Positions 3,563 to 9,206 of a stretch of 37,415 nt of DNA are shown piece by piece (position 1 is the first letter of the stretch; each line of letters opens with the position of its first letter). A program made the translations under genes and the position numbers. Source of the stretch: Bacillota bacterium. GTDB lineage: Bacteria; Bacillota; JADQBR01. The DNA is taken from contig JADQBR010000047.1 of the NCBI GenBank assembly GCA_016278515.1, positions 1 to 37,415 of the forward strand, given 5' to 3'. Under the pieces are notes generated by a model. The model saw only the letters and a program-made list of their open reading frames with translations, did no database searches and had not been told where the DNA came from.

Positions 3563-4006
3563 ATGGATACTGAAAGTTTATCACATACGCAATGGAACTG
3601 TAAATATCATATAGTATTTGCACCGAAGTATAGAAGACAAATAATATATGGGAAAATCAAACAGGACATAGGTAAAATATTACGAACGCTATGTGAATAT
3701 AAAAAAGTAGAGATAATAGAAGCTAATGCTTGCCTCCACATGCTAGTTGCAATCCCACCAAAACTTAGTGTATCCAGTTTCGTGGGTTATCTAAAAGGTA
3801 AAAGTTCGTTAATGATTTTTGATAGGCATGCAAATTTGAAGTATAAGTATGGGAATAGACATTTTTTGTGCAGAGGGTATTATGTGGATACGGTTGGACG
3901 TAACAAGAAAAAGATAGAAGAATACATTAGAAAACAGTTGCAAGAAGACGTAGCAGCAGACCAAATTACTTTAAAAGAATACGTCGATCCATTCACAGGA
4001 GAGTAA
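3563..4006 (+). CDS. tnpA: IS200-type transposase TnpA with damaged HUH motif
   Basis: This 147-aa Y1-type transposase catalyses single-strand excision and insertion in related elements. The fold markers are present: WNCKYHIVFAPKYRR near the N-terminus, the GYLKGKSSLMIF helix, and GYYVDTVGRN carrying the nucleophilic Tyr. The metal-binding HUH site is altered. Relatives I recall read NACKDHIHMLV, but this copy reads NACLHMLV, consistent with a 9-bp in-frame deletion that removes Lys-Asp-His and changes Ile to Leu. Only one of the two His ligands remains. The frame is otherwise intact, so the protein may still be made and bind DNA but should not cleave normally. Start ATG 3563 follows a strong AAAGGAGGT site. 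Confidence 0.85.
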   Translation: MDTESLSHTQWNCKYHIVFAPKYRRQIIYGKIKQDIGKILRTLCEYKKVEIIEANACLHMLVAIPPKLSVSSFVGYLKGKSSLMIFDRHANLKYKYGNRHFLCRGYYVDTVGRNKKKIEEYIRKQLQEDVAADQITLKEYVDPFTGE

Positions 4007-4150: not shown

Positions 4151-4460
4151 CATGACTTACTAGATAATTTATGCATACCAATCTTCAACAAAAGGGTCAG
4201 TAAAATATAATTAGGGAGTGTGAACTTAAACATTATCCCCAGGGCCTATATTTCCCTCTTCTACCATAAAAAAATAGGTGGGGTGGTGAGGGGTCGTTTT
4301 GTTTGCCACCTGATTTAAAAGGTGGTACTATAGCATAATGAGCTAAGAGCCAATTTCTCATGCGGAAGTTTTGAAAGAATTAGAGTTAGATTAGGGTATG
4401 TAGCGCAAAAAAATAACATATGTGCTATTTGCTAATTAAAAGATAATGGGGGGTGGAGAC
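4151..4460. other. Intergenic region between the IS element and the activator leader
   Basis: No gene is supported here. A CCACCT/AGGTGG hairpin lies at 4306-4325, and the stretch 4340-4380 vaguely resembles the conserved end of a group II intron, but I could not support this. Further right the activator leader begins (4461). Confidence 0.4.
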
Positions 4461-4565
4461 CTGGTTACTGGGTCCGAGTATAGCAGTATGGCAGTAAATT
4501 TACCTCAAGAAGGAATTACTGGTTCGTGCTGCTCCGGATTTGTTTAGATTGCAGTAACCAGGGAG
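4461..4565 (+). promoter_or_regulatory. Structured leader with long-range stem reaching the ribosome site of the activator
   Basis: CTGGTTACTG (4461-4470) is the exact reverse complement of CAGTAACCAG (4552-4561). The second arm overlaps the first two bases of the AGGGAG ribosome site (4560-4565) of the gene starting at 4570. If both arms are transcribed, pairing could limit translation. As DNA, the arms also carry TTACTGG/CAGTAAC, close to the CCAGTAATGG boxes at 6141-6194, and a further TTACTGG lies at 4516-4522. The region may therefore be an autoregulatory binding site. I cannot choose between the RNA and DNA readings. Confidence 0.45.
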
Positions 4566-4569
4566 AATT

Positions 4570-6126
4570 ATGTCCCTAATTCGCTGGTGTTTGGCAACTA
4601 AAGATCGGGTGGGTATGGTTTTGGACGTAGTACAGGTGTTTTCCAGATTCGATGTCAACTTGTCTGCCATGGAGGTGGCGCCCGGAGAGGCTTACGTGAA
4701 ATTTGGTGGTGCTGAAGACGAGGTTGCGCTGAAGGAAGCTCTGCTTGAGCATGTGGATATTCTGGAAGTATCTAATGTTGAATTGTTGCCCCAAGAAAAA
4801 AGAGAAAAACAGTTGCAGGCCATCCTGCAATCCATCAGTGAGGGCGTTATTGCCGTGGATAAGGAAGGGGCGATAACACATCTTAATCCCACTGCGGCAG
4901 TACTGCTGCAGTTAAAGCCTGAGGAAGTGAAGGGTAAACTTTTAAGGGAGGTTCTGCAAACTGACCTGCCGATGCTGAAGGTGCTCAGTACAGGCGAAAC
5001 TTACGATAATCAGGAGATATTTTTGGAGACAAGCAGGGGGACGCTGCATTACTTAACCAGTGGGCGGCCGATTAAGAGTGAGCGGGGAGAGATTCTGGGT
5101 GCGGTAGCCGCACTTAAGAGCATACAGGCGGTTAGGAAGATGGTAAATAATCTGACTAAAACTCAGACTGTCCAATTTAAGGATATTGTTCACGCTAGCC
5201 CGGGAATGGCCAATGTTATTCAGATAGCAAAGACAGTTGCCGACAGTAATTCTACCATATTAATTCGGGGAGAGAGCGGTACGGGAAAGGAACTTTTTGC
5301 CCGGGCCATGCACGAAGAGAGCCGGCGTCGGGAAGGTCCGTTTACCCCCATAAACTGTGCGGCTCTGCCGGAAACTCTCCTGGAAAGCGAACTATTCGGT
5401 TATGAGGGAGGAGCTTTCAGCGGTGCTAAAAAGGGTGGCAAGCAGGGATTATTTGAAGTGGCCCATAACGGCACGTTGTTTCTTGATGAGATTGGAGAGT
5501 TGTCCCTTGTGCTGCAGGGTAAGTTGCTTAGGGCAATTCAGGAAGGAGTAATTCGGCGGGTGGGCGGTCAAAAGCAGCTGTCAGTGGATGTGCGGCTGAT
5601 TGCCGCTACTAACCGGGACCTGGAAGAAATGGTCCGGGAAAAGCAGTTCCGGCAAGACCTTTACTATCGACTGAACGTTATCCCTATCAATATTCCTCCT
5701 CTGCGAGAGCACCCTGAAGATATCCCGCTGTTGCTGGAGCATTCTTTGATAAAACTGTGTGAACAGATGGGGAAGCAGTTGTGGTTCTCTCCTAAGGTGT
5801 TAAAATATCTACAGGAGTACAGCTGGCCCGGTAATGTCCGGGAACTGCAGAATGTTGTGGAAAGAGCGGTACATTTAGCACCAAACGGTAAGATAGAGAT
5901 GAGCCACCTACTGCTTGACAGCTGGGCAAAGCGCCAACCATTAAATGATTTGGCGGATGATAAAACGATTAAAGAGATATTGGACAGGACAGAACGAACT
6001 ATAATGGCAGCAGCTTTGCGTAAACACGGTAGTGCAAGGGCGGCTGCCAGAAACCTAGGTTTATCCCATACCACTGTCTTAAAAAAGGCGCATCGCTATA
6101 AATTGGAGCACCTACTTAAGCGCTAA
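4570..6126 (+). CDS. Sigma-54-dependent transcriptional activator (ACT-PAS-AAA+-Fis HTH)
   Basis: This 518-aa TyrR-like enhancer-binding protein remodels sigma-54 RNA polymerase with ATP. An ACT-type domain covers about residues 1-72 (DRVGMVLDV start) and usually binds an amino acid. A PAS domain follows at about 80-185. The AAA+ core has Walker A GESGTGKE near 234, the sigma-54 contact loop as GAFSGA near 281 (GAFTGA is usual, Ser for Thr) and Walker B LFLDEIGEL near 304. The C-terminal Fis-type helix-turn-helix is ARAAARNLGLSHTTVLKKA near 490-508. There is no receiver domain, so the signal is a small molecule. Two -24/-12 promoters lie just downstream (6250, 7850) and repeated candidate binding boxes lie at 6138-6197. 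Together these strongly suggest it activates the methionine gamma-lyase and PanB-type operons. Confidence 0.92.
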   Translation: MSLIRWCLATKDRVGMVLDVVQVFSRFDVNLSAMEVAPGEAYVKFGGAEDEVALKEALLEHVDILEVSNVELLPQEKREKQLQAILQSISEGVIAVDKEGAITHLNPTAAVLLQLKPEEVKGKLLREVLQTDLPMLKVLSTGETYDNQEIFLETSRGTLHYLTSGRPIKSERGEILGAVAALKSIQAVRKMVNNLTKTQTVQFKDIVHASPGMANVIQIAKTVADSNSTILIRGESGTGKELFARAMHEESRRREGPFTPINCAALPETLLESELFGYEGGAFSGAKKGGKQGLFEVAHNGTLFLDEIGELSLVLQGKLLRAIQEGVIRRVGGQKQLSVDVRLIAATNRDLEEMVREKQFRQDLYYRLNVIPINIPPLREHPEDIPLLLEHSLIKLCEQMGKQLWFSPKVLKYLQEYSWPGNVRELQNVVERAVHLAPNGKIEMSHLLLDSWAKRQPLNDLADDKTIKEILDRTERTIMAAALRKHGSARAAARNLGLSHTTVLKKAHRYKLEHLLKR

Positions 6127-6137
6127 ACGTAAAGACG

Positions 6138-6197
6138 GCTCCAGTAATGGAAGCTTAAGTTTCCAGTAATGGAAACTTAAGCTTCCATTACTGGAGC
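6138..6197. promoter_or_regulatory. Perfect 27-bp inverted repeat with three CCAGTAATGG boxes, candidate activator binding site
   Basis: Positions 6138-6164 and 6171-6197 are exact reverse complements around an AGTAAT centre. Within it CCAGTAATGG occurs at 6141-6150 and 6163-6172, and inverted at 6185-6194. The boxes start exactly 22 bp apart, about two DNA turns, so they face one side of the helix. The block lies 56-112 bp upstream of a -24/-12 promoter and just after the activator gene, the usual place for an enhancer of this regulator class. It would also make a very stable hairpin ending the activator transcript, but no T-run follows. Confidence 0.65.
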
Positions 6198-6249
6198 TTC
6201 TAAACAGTCTCGAAATAAAAGAAACCTTACATACCCGCTGATTATTCAG

Positions 6250-6267
6250 TTGGTATTTTTTTTGCTT
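6250..6267 (+). promoter_or_regulatory. Sigma-54 (-24/-12) promoter of the methionine gamma-lyase gene
   Basis: TTGGTATTTTTTTTGCTT has GG at 6252-6253 and GC at 6264-6265 with exactly 10 bp between them, and a TTGCT -12 element. Transcription should begin near 6277, leaving a leader of about 118 nt. It lies between the candidate enhancer boxes and the lyase gene. Confidence 0.72.
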
Positions 6268-6394
6268 AAATAAATGGTGACACATGCATGTAGAAAAATC
6301 AGTATTAAGAAGTCAGAAGACGCCAAATAGACTCTTAGCATTCTGAATTTTTCTATGGTGTTAATCTGAAGAAGAATTATGGGAGGATATAAAC

Positions 6395-7576
6395 ATGATT
6401 AACAAAAAACAGAAATTTGGTACCCGGGCGGTTCATGCAGGGCAAAAGCCGGACCCCTTAACTGGAGCTTTGGTCACCCCCATTTACCAAAATTCCACCT
6501 TTGTATTTTCCGATGTTGCTCAGGGAGCGGCGCGATTTGCCGGCCAGGAAGAGGGATATATCTATTCTCGGTTAGGCAACCCAACCCAGGCGGTACTGGA
6601 AGCAAAAATGGCGGACTTAGAGAACGGTGAGGCGGCACTGGCTTTTGCTTCTGGAATGGCTGCCATGACCGCTGCGGTAATGGCTGTGGTGGAAAGCGGT
6701 CACCATATAATAGTCGATAAAACTATTTACGGTTGCTCTTATGCTTTTTTTAGTGAACTGATAACCAAATTTGGTGTGGACGTCTCTTTTGTGGATGCTG
6801 TGAATCCGGCAAATATTGCGTCGGCCATGCGGGACAATACCAGATTGATTTTTGTGGAAACACCGGCCAATCCCACTTTGAAGATAGTGGATCTGGAAAC
6901 CGTATCAGAGATAGCTCATCGGCGCGGGGCGAAAGTGGTGGTGGATAACACCTTTGCTACTCCTTATTTGCAACGACCATTGGATTTAGGTATAGACATA
7001 GTTGTGCACAGCGCTACCAAATATATTGGTGGCCATGGTGATGTCGTCGGCGGTATTATGGTATCAAATAAAGAATTTCTAGATGAGGTGAGGATGACCA
7101 CCTTAAAAGATATTGGTGGTGTCATCAGCCCCTTTGACTCATGGCTGTTACTGAGGGGACTAAAAACATTGGCGTTGCGCATGGAAAAGCACTGTTCCAA
7201 TGCAATGGCTGTGGCTTTATTCCTGGAAGAACATCCCGCTGTAGAGAGGGTGTATTACCCGGGGTTAACCAACCATCCCCAGAATGTACTAGCTAAAAAA
7301 CAAATGGATGATTTCGGCGGGATGGTTACCTTTGAGCTGAAAGGGGGGTTGGACGAAGGCATCGCATTAATGAATAATGTCAAGATGTGTCATCTAGCGG
7401 TAAGTTTAGGTGACGTGGACACCTTAATTCAGCATCCTGCTTCCATGACCCATTCCGTAGTTCCTTGGGAGAAAAGACTTGAGGCGGGTATTACCGACGG
7501 ATTAGTGCGATTATCAGTGGGCATCGAAGAACCGGAAGACATAATAAATGATCTAGATCAAGCTCTACGGGGTTAG
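6395..7576 (+). CDS. megL: Methionine gamma-lyase (PLP-dependent Cys/Met metabolism enzyme)
   Basis: This 393-aa enzyme splits L-methionine, and often homocysteine or cysteine, into a 2-oxo acid (2-oxobutyrate from Met), ammonia and a thiol. The PLP-binding Lys is K209 in [18 protein letters not shown] and the [12 protein letters not shown] segment are typical of the family. The stretch IYGCSYAFF places Cys114 where Cys116 sits in Pseudomonas methionine gamma-lyase, favouring the lyase over cystathionine gamma-synthase. Length is normal. The ribosome site is GGGAGGAT before ATG 6395. It has its own sigma-54 promoter next to the ACT-domain activator, so expression probably responds to an amino acid. 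The oxo acid would feed iorAB and the acyl-CoA synthetase. A cystathionine lyase or homocysteine lyase role is possible. Confidence 0.85.
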
Positions 7577-7943: not shown

Positions 7944-9206
7944 ATGTTGAAAGATTTATTAAAGGTAAATGGAGAAGTGGTAGAAGAGTTAAATGGGTTT
8001 TTGACCGATAAAAACAATCCATTGGTCAATGATTTGATGAGGGTTATTCAAAAGTATGGCAGCCCTGAGGAGATAAATGCCAAGGCTCGTGAAGCTCGTA
8101 AACTTCCTAACCTGATGGCGCGTCTTCGCAATATGGAATCTCCGTATCTAAAGGACCTTGAATGGCTTATTTCCGTCAGGGATAAAGGTGCTTTTGTCTC
8201 GGTATCAGACTACCGGAGAAACGCGCTTGGAGATAAAATGAACGGAATGGTCTTTGATGAGGGCAATGCCCCTACACTGGAGATCAGCGCCTTGCAGTAC
8301 TTTCCATGGCTAATTAAAGAGGCTGAACAGGCCATAGACAAAAAAGAAATCATGCCCGGTCGCTACATCCGGGTCCGTAAAATGGCTGAACAGGAAGCAG
8401 ATCAGGGTGATATTCTGGCGGTAGCTGCGGCAATGCAAATTGTAGGCGCAAGCTATGTCGAAGCTTTGGATACCAAAGGTGTTGACGGTTCCAATATACA
8501 CCTGCGCGGACCGGAAACTATTACTGGCTACTTTGGTGGTATCGGACAGCCAAACGAATACGCCCTGAAGTGGGTGGATGAGCTCCTCTACTATTATACG
8601 CGTTATGGTATCAATGAAGTATTGAACATTAATCCGGGCACCGTATTACTTGGATATATGCTTTATAAACTTGGTGTCGACACCAAGTTCAAAATTTCAG
8701 TGTTTATGGGCACTGACAACCCGTTCTCCGTTCTGTGGAATCTCATGGGAGCGCGTATGTTTGCTCGTGAAGATGGCACTACTTCGCTTATAGGGCTTAA
8801 CGTCAGCAACTCTGTCAACAATGAAACTCTTGAGCTCAGTGCGGAAATACGCAAAATGCTGGGTCTAGAGCATGACGTACGCATTGAGCACCACATTACC
8901 GAGACCTATAAAGCTGTAGTCGAACAACCCTATAATCGCCGCGACCAACTGTTGGAGGTTGCCAAAAACATTCCCAACATTTCTGCCAAGCACGAGGGAG
9001 GCGAGCCTGAAATCGAAGTTACTCGGGAACATCCGTCCAGTATTTTAGATTATTTTGTTGACAAGAAAGAATTGGTTGCCGCCGGTGACTTGGTGCATCT
9101 GGAACAAAACTATATGGATAAGCATCACTCTGTTAACTTAACTGCAGAGGCATTGACGGAAAAAGGAATGGCTTTTATCGGTGCCAGTAATTTGCACCGG
9201 AGATAA
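7944..9206 (+). CDS. Conserved-looking protein of unknown function (420 aa), sigma-54 controlled
   Basis: I do not recognise this family. The protein is soluble, with no signal peptide or membrane segment. The first 100 residues are helical and charged. The middle and C-terminal parts alternate hydrophobic strands with helices, for example EVLNINPGTVLLGYM, KFKISVFMGTD and TTSLIGLNVSNS. This resembles a TIM-barrel enzyme. Possible polar active-site stretches are RIEHHITETYK, QPYNRRDQLLE and ISAKHEGGEPEIE. Start ATG 7944 follows AAGGAAGGTG. It lies 39 bp before the PanB-type gene and both are read from the consensus sigma-54 promoter at 7850, so they probably act in one pathway. An exact 22-bp palindrome (8668-8689) lies inside the gene. 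Confidence 0.8.
   Translation: MLKDLLKVNGEVVEELNGFLTDKNNPLVNDLMRVIQKYGSPEEINAKAREARKLPNLMARLRNMESPYLKDLEWLISVRDKGAFVSVSDYRRNALGDKMNGMVFDEGNAPTLEISALQYFPWLIKEAEQAIDKKEIMPGRYIRVRKMAEQEADQGDILAVAAAMQIVGASYVEALDTKGVDGSNIHLRGPETITGYFGGIGQPNEYALKWVDELLYYYTRYGINEVLNINPGTVLLGYMLYKLGVDTKFKISVFMGTDNPFSVLWNLMGARMFAREDGTTSLIGLNVSNSVNNETLELSAEIRKMLGLEHDVRIEHHITETYKAVVEQPYNRRDQLLEVAKNIPNISAKHEGGEPEIEVTREHPSSILDYFVDKKELVAAGDLVHLEQNYMDKHHSVNLTAEALTEKGMAFIGASNLHRR

Follow-up and report, generated by a model that had tools for sequence, protein, structure and literature searches.

Two TyrR-type boxes form a predicted upstream activating sequence for a methionine gamma-lyase gene with a sigma-54-type promoter in a Bacillota bacterium

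We analyzed a 37,415-nt stretch of DNA from a Bacillota bacterium (the window), which encodes a putative transcriptional activator and, downstream on the same strand, methionine gamma-lyase (MGL). The relevant features are:

4570-6126, + strand: gene for a TyrR-like sigma-54 enhancer-binding protein (P0001) with an ACT-like N-terminus, PAS, AAA+, and HTH_50; the proposed binder of the boxes
6138-6197, no strand: perfect 28-bp inverted repeat with a GTAA centre, which holds the two TyrR-type boxes
6138-6143 (GCTCCA) and 6192-6197 (TGGAGC): outer half-sites that flank the two boxes
6148-6165, no strand: TyrR-type box 1, TGGAAG-CTTAAG-TTTCCA, a pair of half-sites with a spacer of 6, centred at about -120 from the sigma-54 start
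6170-6187, no strand: TyrR-type box 2, TGGAAA-CTTAAG-CTTCCA, a pair of half-sites with a spacer of 6, centred at about -98
6231-6263, + strand: terminator-like hairpin (stem-loop at 6231-6256, T8 at 6256-6263; -11.5 kcal/mol, z = -7.2)
6250-6266, + strand: sigma-54 promoter TTGGTATTTTTTTTGCT, with the -24 GG at 6252-6253, the -12 GC at 6264-6265, and +1 near 6277
6381-6386, + strand: Shine-Dalgarno sequence GGGAGG of the MGL gene
6395-7576, + strand: MGL gene, the proposed target (TIGR01328, 591.6 bits, above the cut-off of 549.7; PF01053)

The activator matches PF00158 (237.9 bits), PF18024, and PAS from Pfam above their cut-offs. Its match to ACT is weak (18 bits versus a cut-off of 27); an orthologue, from locus L178, is above the cut-off (29.6 bits). 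The order of domains, ACT-PAS-AAA+-HTH_50, is that of TyrR-like enhancer-binding proteins. Against NCBIfam's model for TyrR (NF008085), the activator scores 345.5 bits, which is below the equivalog cut-off of 576; as judged from these models, it is TyrR-like and not TyrR itself. The AAA+ sigma-54 interaction domain has a GAFTGA-type loop that reads GAFSGA, which is one conservative change. GAFSGA is also found in the regulators from Morganella and locus L166, which lie on the same branch of the tree as the window's activator.

The -24/-12 promoter ahead of the MGL gene had been described in an earlier note on this DNA, and we recovered it in the sequence and again with a script, as TTGG (6250-6253), ten nucleotides, and GC (6264-6265). 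The genome also contains a gene for sigma-54. The promoter overlaps the terminator-like hairpin: the -24 GG lies inside the hairpin's 3' arm, and T8 forms most of the spacer between -24 and -12. We predict that the activator's mRNA probably ends at this hairpin (6231-6263).

The inverted repeat begins 11 bp past the activator's stop codon. The earlier note had called it perfect, with arms of 27 bp. It is perfect, but the arms (6138-6165 and 6170-6197) are 28 bp each, 100% complementary, with 4 nt (GTAA) between them. The note had also identified three copies of CCAGTAATGG in 22-bp phasing. All three are present, starting at 6141 (+), 6163 (+), and 6185 (-), and there is no further exact copy in the window. 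These are not three independent events, because the third copy mirrors the first inside the repeat and the middle copy spans the centre of symmetry.

The same letters can be read in another phase, as two boxes of 18 bp. Box 2 is the exact reverse complement of box 1, and their centres are 22 bp apart. The consensus of the TyrR box is TGTAAA-N6-TTTACA, with an obligatory G-N14-C (PMC4374768). Both of the window's boxes have two 6-bp arms, the N6 spacer, a length of 18 bp, and G-N14-C, and each one has 9 of the 12 positions of the E. coli consensus (a strong box needs 10). The statement in the earlier note that the site does not match the TyrR box is therefore not upheld: the architecture does match. 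In the 18-bp phase, CCAGTAATGG is an artefact of phase, as TTTCCA-gtaa-TGGAAA is the junction between half-sites of the two tandem boxes.

We compared the window to other genomes that encode relatives of the regulator; the sources were 398 genomes from the phylum, an initial set of 61 relatives, and named genomes. About 30 loci, from many families of Bacillota, carry the regulator followed by MGL in the same orientation; in Morganella, the two genes are divergent. Nearly all of the orthologous loci have strong -24/-12 promoters before MGL. The regions between the genes hold TGGAAA-N6-TTTCCA, TGGTAA-N6-TTACCA, or TGTAAA-N6-TTTACA in quantity. With the window excluded and GG required in both halves, we found 35 half-site pairs with a spacer of 6, in 18 regions, versus 1.1 in dinucleotide shuffles; every other spacer gave 0-4 pairs. 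Because the distal box spans the regulator's stop codon in several families, we also included the final 80 nt of the regulator's coding sequence. This gave 63 spacer-6 pairs, in 27 of 29 regions (versus 0.9 in mononucleotide shuffles), where the 29 regions are the other regulator-MGL loci, which include related species that are not independent and yet span many families. A spacer of 5 also seemed to be common (25 pairs), but this is a register effect, with TGGTAAA being read as GGTAAA, and requiring GG on both sides leaves just one pair.

Relative to the sigma-54 start, most of the boxes lie between -64 and -200, with extremes to -266, and they are often in tandem pairs, 19-22 bp apart. In six loci, the regulator gene runs into a box at its 3' end and the stop codon TAG falls within N6, as in CGGAAA-gatTAG-TTTCCA. 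The two Morganella regions contain no boxes of the spacer-6 type, even though their regulators share a branch with the window's protein. In the two genomes from the same family as the window's genome, we found no pair of regulator and MGL, which leaves no footprint at close range.

The comparison also bears on the phase. If the three 10-bp copies of CCAGTAATGG were the activator's binding units, this would account for their exactness and 22-bp phasing, and more CAGTAA motifs lie 5' of the activator gene. But only the 18-bp phase contains the G-N14-C of TyrR boxes. Also, we searched for CCAGTAATGG near orthologues of the activator, as the earlier note had proposed, and found no copy of it from the regulator to MGL in the orthologues examined; instead, TGGAAA-N6-TTTCCA and its variants recur. 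We consider it very unlikely that CCAGTAATGG is the binding unit. CAGTAA as a conserved core was rejected on the same absence of CCAGTAATGG, although CAGTAA does cluster around the window's activator. With the corrected phase, footprints and mutations can target the right bases.

To score the boxes, we built a matrix from the orthologous sites alone, with the window excluded. Both of the window's boxes score 22.8, and the runner-up in the 37 kb scores 10.4. A score of 22.8 was reached nowhere in 3 Mb of random sequence or in 606 kb of other loci. For the regulon in the window's own genome, we searched by pattern and applied the matrix to the pattern matches, among which the best other match scores 16.4. 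The scores of these pattern matches would fit a regulator that controls just one operon.

An alternative is that the palindrome acts as RNA, by ending the activator's mRNA, as the earlier note had raised, or by stabilizing its 3' end, and is not a binding site in DNA. As RNA, the 60-nt palindrome folds at -49.8 kcal/mol (z = -15.2) and is capped by a GUAA tetraloop (of the GNRA type), and its position just after the stop codon would suit this role. However, the palindrome is not an intrinsic terminator: the letters after 6138-6197 are UUCUAAAC, with no U tract, and the U8 belongs to the distinct hairpin at 6231-6256, about 34 bp further downstream. Nor is the long hairpin conserved. The longest inverted repeats in the orthologous regulator-MGL regions have arms of 4-16 bp, and in two of these loci (L173 and L179), a separate terminator stands apart from the intergenic box. 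No RNA family reached its gathering score anywhere in the 37-kb window. Since neither CCAGTAATGG nor the perfect hairpin is conserved, it is the boxes that carry the conserved signal. We think it quite unlikely that the palindrome is an RNA element instead of a binding site; a side role in the stability of the mRNA is possible.

Perfect palindromes are also typical of mobile or repetitive elements (REP or MITE-like), and a gene for an IS200/IS605-type transposase (3563-4006), followed by a hairpin-rich stretch, lies upstream of the activator, 2 kb from the palindrome. A remnant of such an element could have landed between the two genes. But the 60-nt palindrome is present in a single copy in the 4.27-Mb genome, and its content fits the regulator's matrix, which was derived from orthologues. 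A mobile remnant strikes us as extremely improbable.

Taken together, we predict with high confidence that the MGL gene has its upstream activating sequence at 6148-6187 and that the adjacent TyrR-like activator binds there. The earlier note had suggested a dedicated enhancer for this activator, acting on the sigma-54 promoter, and the conserved linkage, boxes, promoters, and matrix provide comparative support for it. In the mechanism that we propose, the ACT/PAS N-terminus would sense methionine or a related amino acid or compound, and dimers of the activator would sit on the two boxes, on one face of the helix. Upon the signal, the box-bound dimers would assemble into an AAA+ oligomer, which would loop to the closed complex of sigma-54 RNA polymerase at 6250-6266 and open it. 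The neighbouring gene for methionine breakdown would thereby be switched on. Methionine catabolism yields methanethiol, ammonia, and 2-oxobutyrate, and for a TyrR-like activator of this process, the boxes provide an operator that is concrete and can be tested.

Compared to its relatives, the palindrome is unusually perfect, and as far as the sequences indicate, this is the only odd part of the arrangement. As no orthologous region has arms above 16 bp, only this genome has the perfect palindrome among the loci compared, and the orthologues do not need it. It is best taken as two near-palindromic boxes in inverted register, whose symmetry may have been completed through a hairpin or by template switching during mutation; palindromes can plausibly be corrected in the latter way. 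On the other hand, the pairing runs through the spacer positions, which binding should leave free. The palindrome might have a role beyond the two sites, for instance as a cruciform under supercoiling or as a fold in read-through mRNA of the activator. Occupancy of the boxes would then depend on supercoiling or on whether the activator gene is being transcribed, and the adjoining overlap of terminator and promoter would belong to this switch. We view such a role as improbable.

A similar system has been predicted in Clostridiales, with MdeR controlling mdeA-metT with sigma-54, via the motif TGT-N10-12-ACA (Nie et al. 2019, PMC6615313). Like MdeR, the window has a sigma-54 enhancer-binding protein, a methionine gamma-lyase as the target, and an upstream activating sequence with a -24/-12 promoter. 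A gene from a Na+/H+ antiporter family follows MGL in L114 (from Pfam) and in L158 and L168 (from a similar N-terminus), as expected from mdeA-metT, and the boxes of L178 (TGTAAA-N6-TTTACA) fit the published motif. In contrast, the boxes in the window are TGG-N12-CCA, which do not fit TGT-N10-12-ACA; the window's MGL has no transporter directly after it; and the DNA-binding domain of MdeR was described as Fis-type (PF02954; PMC6615313), whereas the best HTH model for the window's activator is HTH_50. Given the same type of target, some antiporter-family genes, and one member with TGTAAA boxes, the window's group is probably the same regulator as MdeR, in so far as its published description allows the two to be likened, or a sister of it.

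There is also an experimental precedent. GcsR from Pseudomonas aeruginosa, another TyrR-like enhancer-binding protein, binds tandem 18-bp sites (TGTAACG-N4-CGTTCCG) upstream of an RpoN promoter, and its target is also for the catabolism of an amino acid (PMC4894688). The boxes in the window, TGGAARC-N4-GYTTCCA, have the same 7-4-7 layout. GcsR differs in that it governs glycine cleavage upon glycine, has three sites, and has T as the third base of the left arm. E. coli TyrR shares the order of domains, the type of HTH, and the 18-bp box with N6 and G-N14-C (PMC4374768), but it is mainly a repressor, or an activator at ordinary promoters, and it answers to aromatic amino acids; the window's promoter is of the sigma-54 type and its half-site is TGGAAA. 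Given the predicted MdeR regulon and the precedent of GcsR, the arrangement that we predict here is of a known type that recurs in many relatives, and the window adds another example. More broadly, many Bacillota share this grammar of TyrR-type boxes with a 6-bp spacing, in which the half-sites are TGGAAA, TGGTAA, and TGTAAA.

In ten loci, the recognition helix of the regulator has SHA or THA instead of SHT, and all ten have TGGTAA-type boxes. Because these regulators form one clade, this is a single event, and the co-variation proves little. Still, it offers a starting point for working out the recognition code of HTH_50. In five other loci, one of which is from the window's own genome (C84:12000-24000), paralogous TyrR-like regulators lie upstream of genes that resemble alanine dehydrogenase (from their N-termini, by eye). 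Similar 18-bp boxes, such as TGGCAA-N6-TTGCCA or TGGAAA-N6-TTTCCA, lie between the two genes.

We also noticed a structured leader (4448-4570) on the 5' side of the activator gene. Its segments CCTGGTTACTG...CAGTAACCAGG close a long hairpin beside the Shine-Dalgarno sequence (-50 kcal/mol, z = -3.4). The leader contains several CAGTAA motifs, is present once in the genome, and has no match in Rfam. The hairpin could control the translation of the activator. Further downstream, 7944-9206 encodes a 420-amino-acid protein with no match in Pfam or NCBIfam, and it is followed by genes from the ketopantoate hydroxymethyltransferase and ArgE/DapE families and by a TRAP transporter.
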